NCBI GenBank assembly: GCA_016191235.1
Contig: JACPOZ010000011.1
Span: 1 to 64,000 of the forward strand
Direction of reading: 5' to 3'
From: Gammaproteobacteria bacterium
Lineage (GTDB): Bacteria > Pseudomonadota > Gammaproteobacteria > Ga0077554 > Ga007554
DNA length: 64,000 nucleotides
Part shown: one piece after another, positions 14,062-42,382 of the stretch
Numbering within the stretch: the first letter of the stretch is position 1
Layout of the letters: each line of letters opens with the position of its first letter
Position numbers and translations under genes: made by a program
The notes under the pieces: generated by a model
Told to the model about the DNA's origin: nothing
The model's database searches: none
The model's input: only the letters and a program-made list of their open reading frames with translations

Positions 14062-14206
14062 ATTGTACTGTGTCACAAGGCGATCAAGGGATGCAGTGCA
14101 AGGCAAAATCGGGCGAAAAAGCGGAGTTTACAGGTAGTAAATGAGCATTTTGAGTCCGATTTTAACGCCGCAATGCGCCCTTCAGCGCTTTGTGACACAG
14201 TACAAT
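14062..14206. repeat. Dispersed palindromic element, copy A (no internal unit)
   Basis: The 145-bp element is bounded by ATTGTACTGTGTCACAA (14062) and its exact complement ending at 14206. The halves are imperfectly complementary through AAAATCGG/CCGATTTT towards a central GTTTAC..GTAAAT hairpin. It carries GCAAGGCAAAATCGGGCG, CGAAAAAGCG and AACGCCGCAATGCGCCC, shared with the three other copies, but has none of the GCGAAGGGTT units. It lies between convergent genes. Confidence 0.85.
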
Positions 14207-21730: not shown

Positions 21731-21877
21731 AGATAAAAACTCCATTTCTGAAAAACATCTCGGTTTTTGATCAACGCCATGGGGCGATACGCGACAACCC
21801 CCATACAGTGATACCGCTATTAGCGGCACGCCAGATTAAAATATAAGGATTTTCCATCGCCCCCATTACACCCTTTA

Positions 21878-22085
21878 AGAACCTGTTCAAGATCTCGATC
21901 AAGGGAAGAGCGCGAGCGAAGGGTTTAGCGCAAGCGAAGGGTTTAGCGAAGCGAAGGGTTCCAGTGCAAGACAAAATCGAACGAAAAAGCGGAGCATACA
22001 TGAAGCTTGCCGCTTCTCGGCCCCGCATTTTGAGTTTGATTTTAACGCCGCAATGCGCCCTTCAGCGAGATCTTGAACAGGTTCT
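21878..22085. repeat. Dispersed palindromic element, copy B (three internal units)
   Basis: The 208-bp element has exact 20-bp ends: AGAACCTGTTCAAGATCTCG at 21878 and its complement ending at 22085. After GATCAAGGGAAG it carries three tandem units of the type AGCGCAAGCGAAGGGTTT (about 21905-21962), then the core shared with the other copies and a central GC-rich hairpin (GAAGC..GCTTC). No gene is visible in 21731-21877 upstream of it. Confidence 0.85.
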
Positions 22086-22486
22086 AATTCGAATTCTATT
22101 TCAAAACGCGAATAACTATGTGGGGTGCGATCCCACTATTGATTTAGAAATGGAATTACTTCCCCAGCGCCACAGCAACGTTGTCACCACCCATCCCGGT
22201 CGGCGATTCATTCTTTCTTTTAAAACAATTAGTTATTAACTCAAAAAACATCCCTGGAGCAATCTCGCCAGTGGTCATGAAAATCGAACGTAAAAACTAC
22301 TAAAGCTTGATTACGATGCGCCGATAACCTTGACGAGGGTATTAATACCCGCAGGCGAGTCCATGGATGGGCGAGGTAGAGCAACGCAGGGAGCAGTTGC
22401 CGAATTTGTACCCGTCTTTGTGGAGAGAAGCGGCAGGAGCCCATCTCTAATTTTTTATTAAATCTCACATGTGAGGAGAGATGATT
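22086..22486 (+). other. 401-bp untranslated region before the secreted-protein gene
   Basis: No credible gene. A short palindromic stretch (GGGTATTAATACCC, near 22338) and a strong GAGGAG ribosome-binding site at the end are visible. The region was checked for the c-di-GMP-I riboswitch pattern, which is absent. Confidence 0.4.
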
Positions 22487-28137: not shown

Positions 28138-28812
28138 ATGGATAATGATCCTGGCGATCACGCCGCCGACTCCGCACTTGAACATTCAAGCCGCAGCACG
28201 CGCTCGGCCACCCGTCGCGGTTCACGTAGCCGACATCATATACATAGCCGCCGGAGCAGCCAGCGCCTGGCGGTGATAATTGTCTGGCTCGGCCTCTTTC
28301 TTGCCACGCTGCTGGTGCTCACAATTTATTTAGGATTGGAGCTTGCGCAGGCCACGAAACACGCCAACAAGCTGGCTGCGGAATTGACTGATGCAAAACT
28401 GGAGTTATCCAGCCTGAAACCGCGGCGGGAGGAAGCCTGGCAAGGCCCGCTACAGATCGCCAAGGAGCAGCCCCCTGCGCTCATTGACATACAGTTCGAC
28501 AAGGTGATCCCGATAAACAAAGGGTACTTGAAGAATATTATGTTCTCGGTCGTCAACCGCAACGGCCAAAAGAGATACGAATACCGGCTGGTGTTCGAGA
28601 ACACCACAAGCCGCCGGGTCTACCCTCACGCCCGGGTAACTCTATTCAATAAAAGCCAAAAGCAGATCGGCATGGATGAGATTAGCGATTATGCCGAGCT
28701 TGCACCCGGAGAAAGCCGCTCTCACTCCGCGCTGATGACACATTTGGCAGATCAGGAACCACACCGCTTTTCAGTCGACACCAAAGATGGGGTGGATTTG
28801 CCTGGCCCGTAA
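28138..28812 (+). CDS. Membrane-anchored protein of unknown function
   Basis: About 224 residues. A basic, Ser/Arg/His-rich N-terminus (SRSTRSATRRGSRSRHHIHS) is followed by one membrane helix (about 44-66), a short coiled coil (ATKHANKLAAELTDAKLELSS) and a soluble domain from about 100 with KNIMFSVVNRNGQKRYEYRLVFENTT and YPHARVTLFNK. That pattern of beta-strands recalls an immunoglobulin-like periplasmic domain. Starts at 28123 and 28138 are both possible; the second is favoured by its position. It follows the small membrane gene and ends next to repeat copy C. Confidence 0.65.
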   Translation: MDNDPGDHAADSALEHSSRSTRSATRRGSRSRHHIHSRRSSQRLAVIIVWLGLFLATLLVLTIYLGLELAQATKHANKLAAELTDAKLELSSLKPRREEAWQGPLQIAKEQPPALIDIQFDKVIPINKGYLKNIMFSVVNRNGQKRYEYRLVFENTTSRRVYPHARVTLFNKSQKQIGMDEISDYAELAPGESRSHSALMTHLADQEPHRFSVDTKDGVDLPGP

Positions 28813-28813
28813 T

Positions 28814-28997
28814 CCTGCTGTGTTACAAAGCGATCAAGGGAAGAGCGCAAGCGAAGGGTTCCCAGTGCAAGGCAAAATCGGGCGAAAAAGCGGAGTTTAC
28901 ACGGAGTTTGCCGCTTCACGGCCCCGCATTCCGAGTCCCCTTTTATATCAAGGGCCAACGCAGCAATGCGCCCTTTAGCGCTTTGTAACACAGTAGG
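28814..28997. repeat. Dispersed palindromic element, copy C (one internal unit)
   Basis: The 184-bp element is bounded by CCTGCTGTGTTACAAAGCG at 28814 and a near-complement ending at 28997 (one mismatch). It carries one GCGCAAGCGAAGGGTTCCC unit, the shared core (GCAAGGCAAAATCGGGCG) and the longer central hairpin. Both ends read GTGTTACAA where copy A reads GTGTCACAA at both ends. It lies between convergent genes. Confidence 0.85.
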
Positions 28998-29022
28998 AGT
29001 AACAGGGGGCAGATTTTCAGTT

Positions 29023-42136: not shown

Positions 42137-42153
42137 AATCCAAGATTGTCCTT

Positions 42154-42357
42154 AGAACCTGCTCACGATCTCGATCAAGGGAAGAGCGAAGCGAAGGGTT
42201 TAGCACAAGCGAAGGGTTCCCAGTGCAAGGCAAAATCGCACGAAAAAGCGCAGCATACACGCAGTTTGCCGCTTCCCGGCCCCGCATTTTGAGTGCGCCC
42301 CAATATATTAAGGGTAACGCCGCAATGCACCCTTCAGCGAGATCGTGAACAGGTTCT
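42154..42357. repeat. Dispersed palindromic element, copy D (two internal units)
   Basis: The 204-bp element has ends AGAACCTGCTCACGATCTCG (42154) and a complement ending at 42357 with one change. After GATCAAGGGAAG it has two GCGAAGGGTT units, the shared core with CGAAAAAGCG, and the central GC-rich hairpin. Both ends read CACGATC where copy B has CAAGATC at both ends. It lies between convergent valS and dedD. Confidence 0.85.
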
Positions 42358-42382
42358 TAGGCGAAATAGTGAGCGTATACCG

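Follow-up and report, generated by a model that had tools for sequence, protein, structure and literature searches.

The BOX repeats of Streptococcus are small and structured, with boxB tandem modules in variable number between their ends; these modules are predicted to fold with few contacts to the remainder, and S. suis has two end families around the same kind of boxB modules (PMC3049150). Likewise, a 23-nt minisatellite lies inside the BrickBuilt MITE of Porphyromonas gingivalis, a repeat of other sequence from another phylum, and the abstract of that report does not mention a core common to other end types (PMC4596501). ERIC/IRU is also an imperfect-palindrome MITE (PMC2229807, PMC10969869), with 5'TA at its termini (PMC2229807). 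The element described here shares with BOX the presence of variable internal tandem modules between conserved ends, but its sequence and phylum are others, and a hairpin core is common to its end types. With about 45 nt, the boxB module is also larger than the present unit.

Unit number in the four window copies

The window is a stretch of 64,000 nucleotides of contig C59 (JACPOZ010000011.1), which belongs to a 2.1-Mb draft gammaproteobacterial genome (G000) that is 79% complete. The four copies of the repeat and their units are as follows.

14063..14205, + strand: type B element, 0 units (AAGGG-ATG-CAGTGC at 14086-14099); DNA fold z -8.50; model R1 match at 14066-14202
21879..22084, + strand: type A element, 3 units; target duplication TAA at 21876-21878 / 22085-22087; DNA fold z -6.35, RNA fold z -6.64
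21906..21958, + strand: three-unit array (18, 18, 17 nt), AAGGG on one side, TTCCAGTGC on the other
28813..28998, + strand: type B element, 1 unit; target duplication GTAA at 28809-28812 / 28999-29002; DNA fold z -3.74 (span 28814-28999)
28841..28858, + strand: one unit
42155..42356, + strand: type A element, 2 units; target duplication TTA at 42152-42154 / 42357-42359; DNA fold z -4.81
42182..42216, + strand: two-unit array (17, 18 nt)

An earlier note on this DNA had counted 0, 1, 2 and 3 units in the copies at 14062, 28814, 42154 and 21878, respectively. These counts were confirmed by direct reading and, at 21878, by Tandem Repeats Finder, which reports 21909-21960 as a formal tandem repeat (period 18, 2.9 copies, 94% matches). 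The units are of the AGCGCAAGCGAAGGGTTT type, and both 17-nt and 18-nt forms occur. The copy at 14062 passes through AAGGG-ATG-CAGTGC with no unit, and the copy at 28814 has AAGAGCGCAAGCGAAGGG as its single unit at 28841-28858. The copy at 42154 has AAGAGCGAAGCGAAGGG and TTTAGCACAAGCGAAGGG at 42182-42216, and the copy at 21878 has AAGAGCGCGAGCGAAGGG, TTTAGCGCAAGCGAAGGG and TTTAGCGAAGCGAAGGG at 21906-21958. Adjacent units within the arrays of two or three differ from each other, and thus a fresh duplication is not seen. The span 21878-22085, to which the earlier note was attached, is an inverted-repeat element with 28-nt arms that are 93% complementary. Searches of Rfam at gathering thresholds and for tRNAs gave no match anywhere in the window.

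The copies are miniature inverted-repeat elements

The copies are inverted-repeat elements of about 140-210 bp with arms of about 28 nt, a size that is presumably too small to encode a transposase. They are non-autonomous inverted-repeat elements (MITEs): they are short, have terminal inverted repeats and target duplications, and have unoccupied counterpart sites, and type A alone has ends that match an autonomous element. The element is assigned to MITEs and not to ERIC or BOX; its behaviour resembles that of BOX and of the BrickBuilt MITE.

Type A ends (AGAACCTG) duplicate TNA, type B ends (GTGTYACAA) duplicate NTAN, and type C ends duplicate a 4-bp target; for all three types the duplication counts exceed all shuffles. 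Exact 3-bp duplications flank 39 of 53 type A copies (shuffles mean 17.6, max 27) and exact 4-bp duplications flank 32 of 44 type B copies (shuffles mean 6.4, max 15), in a set of 147 entries from which 49 that lack a second arm, often because of a contig end, were removed; of the remaining 98 copies, 97 were typed. Similarly, in a genus set of 122 copies with two recognised shells, which leaves out broken copies, L008 and L029, exact duplications were found in 62 of 79 type A, 12 of 31 type B and 7 of 11 type C copies (shuffle max 37, 9 and 5). Within the window, the element at 14063..14205 has no matching target duplication (GTAT versus TTAA), and the element at 28813..28998 sits at the stop codon of an ORF that ends at 28812.

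The element is absent from every congener site at which both flanks could be aligned (7/7 comparisons at three window sites). The empty sites are those of 21878 and 28814 in G001, G002 and G003, and that of 14062 in G003. These were the feasible 7 of 12 window-site comparisons, because only a single flank aligns for 14062 in G001 and G002 and for 42154 in all three congeners. The junction at the empty 28814 site is exact, with GGCCCATAACAGG in G001 against CCCGTAA-element-GTAACAGG in the window. At 21878 (G001, G002 and G003) and 14062 (G003), 31-93 bases lie between the flanks, and the junctions are diverged and inexact. Beside valS, near the counterpart of 42154, a separate type A copy lies between TTA duplicates in G001, and G002 and G003 have a single TTA at that site with the element absent. 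The proposal that the element is mobile is thus borne out by target duplications and unoccupied sites, together with an insertion sequence with matching ends that is described below.

Some copies have unusual forms or positions. By reading, L280 is an 82-bp type A derivative with hardly more than two arms. Type B copies in L079, L081, L104, L107 and other JACREB01 contigs often lie close to a contig end (about 95-135 bases away), which would fit assembly breaks at near-identical copies, and some JACREB01 type B copies have an extra 48-bp insert, possibly self-folding (the 185-bp form).

Hairpin structure and position of the unit

An alignment of 41 distinct unit-less copies of types A and B (137 columns) gives a structure of 54 pairs, in which 99.0% of cells are paired when scored on the same 41 sequences from which it was derived. 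Double changes occur at 23 of the 54 pairs, compared to at most 7 in slid controls (<=45.8% paired). Variation at several end pairs is also seen among just the 18 type A sequences, with 17 or 18 of 18 still paired at each. Additionally, the DNA folds of all four window copies beat every one of 200 shuffles each. The earlier suggestion of a structured element is therefore supported by a long hairpin whose changes are compensated.

The unit occupies a left-arm position directly inside the shell; AAGGG is repeated with each unit, and the right-arm CCCTT is single. In the predicted folds of all four window copies the outer stem is present and the interior varies by copy. For instance, in the RNA fold predicted for the 3-unit copy, the units make side hairpins and the main stem closes. 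In the DNA centroid folds predicted for the 1- and 2-unit copies, the outer stem is held and little else, with the interior rearranged. One further type A copy (L012 1466-1612) has lost both its unit tail and its left core; the deletion fits the repeated AAGCG.

Distribution of units across end types and genomes

At least 25 copies are present in G000 (15 type A, 8 type B and 2 type C), a tally to which L008 and L029 were added after reading by eye; copy numbers and genome counts are lower bounds throughout. Over these copies the unit number ranges from 0 to 3 in type A and from 0 to 1 in type B. A unit parse of the 97 type A and B copies, which omits L012, L019, L057, L171 and L174 and also has L008 outside it, found 0, 1, 2 and 3 units in 29, 15, 3 and 1 type A copies, and 0 and 1 units in 42 and 2 type B copies, respectively.

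The end types that the earlier note had given for the window copies (0 and 1 units in type B, 3 and 2 in type A) were correct, but its conclusion that unit number is independent of end type is not supported over the larger set. In G000 and G001, a unit is present in 26/46 type A and 4/18 type B copies (Fisher p 0.024 pooled, on copies that are not independent; p 0.056 and 0.15 for the two genomes separately, neither significant), and arrays of 2-3 units were seen in type A only. Types C and D have a unit in 0/12 copies over four genomes, and no unit was found by pattern recognition in 52 copies of G002 and G003.

Unit sequence, in contrast, differs between the unit-bearing genomes G000 and G001 and not between end types A and B. 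The form AGCGCAGCG accounts for 17/17 units in G001 (15 in type A and 2 in type B) and 0/18 units in G000. Since it is in both end types of G001, unit sequence is shared across end types inside one genome, a pattern drawn from two genomes. Similarly, the allele CACAAGAG is present in 7 type A and 2 type B copies, every one of them in G001. Unit-less cores behave otherwise: for 41 of these, the nearest neighbour is of the same end type at a frequency of 0.927 (shuffles 0.505) and of the same genome at 0.295 (shuffles 0.278). These cores follow end type, and therefore end types do not as a rule swap their cores wholesale. On this nearest-neighbour test, the idea that an entire core tracks its genome was rejected for unit-less cores; it is retained for unit form, in two genomes, and for the CACAAGAG allele. 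Between types A and B, the consensus ends agree at 12/32 positions and the cores at 93/105.

Unit differences at shared sites

When the 122 copies from four genomes were compared by their 70-nt flanks, four shared sites emerged. At the first, G001 (L299) has 1 unit and G003 (L290) has 0, an unpolarised difference; the surrounding 4 kb are 92% identical, and the two copies have unusual element letters in common. The second site, in G001 (L339) and G002 (L334), shows two differences: a 23-bp arm hairpin that is present in one copy and absent from the other, and a single compensated change that affects both ends (GAACCTG/CAGGTTC versus GAACCCG/CGGGTTC). The third (type B) differs between G001 (L265) and G003 (L068) in its centre as well as at other letters of the core. 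At the fourth, where flank identity is lower (73-82%), the copies in G000 (L021 1501-1654) and G003 (L314; also L440) are in opposite orientation and are possibly independent insertions. As an optional module, the 17-18 nt unit can vary from one related species to another at a single chromosomal site. The comparison at the same locus that the earlier note had proposed, made here between species, thus revealed a unit difference, limited to 0 versus 1 at one site. Its picture of a repeat that grows or shrinks inside the element agrees with that difference, whereas growth and shrinkage of arrays are surmised.

Very probably, these hairpin MITEs consist of a shell and a core, and the unit is an optional left-arm module of drifting number. 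The shell, the outer ~19-20 bp per side, would comprise the ends read by the transposase, and the core would be the conserved imperfect hairpin inside it. The AAGGG of each unit would be able to pair with the single right-arm CCCTT; because AAGGG is in every unit, the outer stem could form at any unit number, which would leave that number free to drift. Such drift might occur by slippage, by unequal exchange between short repeats, or by copying from another genomic element.

A compatible variant of this explanation, in which unit differences arose by gene conversion or recombination between copies and not by slippage, is a real possibility that stays some way short of probable. It would account for a unit form that tracks the genome across end types A and B, for non-identical adjacent units, and for L013, a type B copy whose unit, long centre and arm hairpin are like those of type A copies in the same genome. 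However, it sits poorly with unit-less cores that track end type and not genome, and the 0/1 difference at the shared site has no clear tract beyond ordinary divergence.

A candidate insertion sequence for type A ends

A PF13340 search of eight genomes of the order identified, in another genus of the same family (G004), an 865-bp element that has ends GAACCTATTCAATATCT, a TAA duplication, and ORFs that match DUF4096 and DDE_Tnp_1, as in IS5-family insertion sequences. The type A MITE L163 has GAGCCTATTCAATATCT, one letter off these ends. Matching ends and a TNA target tie type A to the IS5 family, and type A shells are thus likely to be the ends of an IS5-family insertion sequence. TNA and YTAR targets are typical of the IS1031 and IS5 groups. 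The G004 element shares the type A ends and TNA duplication, but the MITEs are without a transposase and the G004 element is, by eye, without the hairpin core. Both of its ORFs share a frame with an in-frame stop between them, and therefore this copy may be inactive.

None of the loci examined contained a transposase flanked by ends of type B, C or D. The ends of PF01609 transposases of the genus (30 loci) never match the elements, and a search of 249 loci for facing end pairs 350-4000 bp apart returned two (L127, composite, and L090, doubtful), neither shown to be an insertion sequence. A search of phage records with one type B copy gave no match. Plasmids showed only partial core matches, in Halomonas, Pseudomonas, Klebsiella and Fukatsuia. 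A 402-aa PF01609 transposase was observed in G003 in about 20 similar copies (L221 and further loci); the ends of two of these (L221 and L230) are CAGAAGTGTCCGG, unrelated to the MITEs.

A common core across the class and its possible relation to ERIC

At least 114 stretches match a degenerate 24-mer of the core in an exact search, and the 80 matches listed come from Nitrosomonadales, Nitrosomonas, Gallionella and other gammaproteobacterial MAGs. The element model R1 has matches in at least 58 of 185 genomes of the class to which the window belongs, G000-G002 included (E<=1e-8, strict filters). In the best locus of each of 27 of the other genomes, a 72-nt core is alignable in 27/27 (scores 53-123, no shuffled control), with the core base lacking in L420 and L423. 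Ends are legible in 22 of these loci (the end reading leaves out L402, L413, L418, L423 and L425; the core alignments take in all 27) and are widely different, for instance AGGTTGTTGAAAAACTC (G169), AACCTCTGATTTATTC (G039) and GTGCCTCTGATTAATTC (G165). By eye, 4-bp duplications flank at least six loci: TTAA (G039, G128 and G137), CTAG (G165 and G169) and CTAA (G028). Because the loci were chosen by R1, likeness to the model is expected, but covariation is not thereby expected; across 47 core sequences, 17/22 pairs are double-changed and 95.8% of cells are paired (slid at most 44.0%). A long hairpin of any kind could score with R1, but the core alignment also shows unpaired letters in common. 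Several end types have one 72-nt hairpin core in common.

ERIC may be a relative of this core. E. coli ERIC aligns to the core on the minus strand (28.5 points, versus 23 on the other strand). In 100 kb of E. coli, the two ERIC copies defined by BLAST (n=2) rank 1-2 of 11 in an unfiltered search with core model R2, the successor of R1 built without ERIC, with scores of 15.8 and 15.3 bits and weak E values of 0.48 and 0.62. Given these E values, the relatedness of the two copies, and the fact that ERIC itself is a hairpin, this ranking amounts to one suggestive datum. The two E. coli copies have CAAG/AAGGC..GGAGCTTACA..AGTAAGTGA..GAG in the order of the core, and one also has AACGCAG. An apical motif that was chosen after seeing ERIC has 2 matches versus 0 in 100 Markov resamples. 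The ends, however, are not those of ERIC, since here they are GAACCTG, TCCTACTG, GGGTGCC and GAGACC with TNA or 4-bp targets. No literature text with any of six core 14-15-mers was found, in a search that had most subscription papers outside its scope and does not thereby prove novelty.

A second hairpin repeat of about 238 bp was also observed (L270-L278; G000, G002 and G003), with ends that are mostly CCTAAAAACGGCAGTTG...CAACTGCCGTTTTTAGG. Four of its copies score 19-23 bits with the core model, and the match is limited to the core base.

It is tentatively proposed, as a reading that falls just short of probable, that the hairpin core has been inherited across Gammaproteobacteria while its shells were replaced by mostly IS5-type ends, that ERIC would be one re-shelled member, and that modules were added to the arms. 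As a rival to the shell-and-core explanation, compensated changes throughout the core could mean that the hairpin is kept for a job as transcribed RNA, in which a gene-end hairpin would govern how mRNA is processed or decays, with unit number as the adjustment. Such a role would suit the position of three of the four window copies between converging ORFs, and Correia and ERIC transcripts are reported in a MITE review to be RNase-processed (PMC10969869). However, arm-against-arm correction of hairpin DNA may also yield compensated changes, and both ends changed together at the second shared site. The absence of the element in every feasible congener comparison and of the unit in all 52 copies of G002 and G003 also argues against an RNA-level job, which is therefore unlikely. 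Less credible still is an ordinary neutral minisatellite that lies in the repeat by chance and is unrelated to the hairpin: its short, GC-rich, 17/18-nt period would fit, but the unit is at one hairpin position across unrelated insertion sites, two end types and several genomes, and other optional modules (arm and centre inserts) are at fixed positions too.

Overall, a hairpin MITE of shell and core with an optional left-arm module is the preferred explanation. MITEs are usually expected to keep their ends while the middle drifts. The pattern here is the opposite, in that the core is kept and the ends vary, and the same core occurs with still other ends across the class. Through the core, the exchangeable shells, the optional modules and one candidate transposase, the nature and the mover of ERIC-like hairpins are testable.
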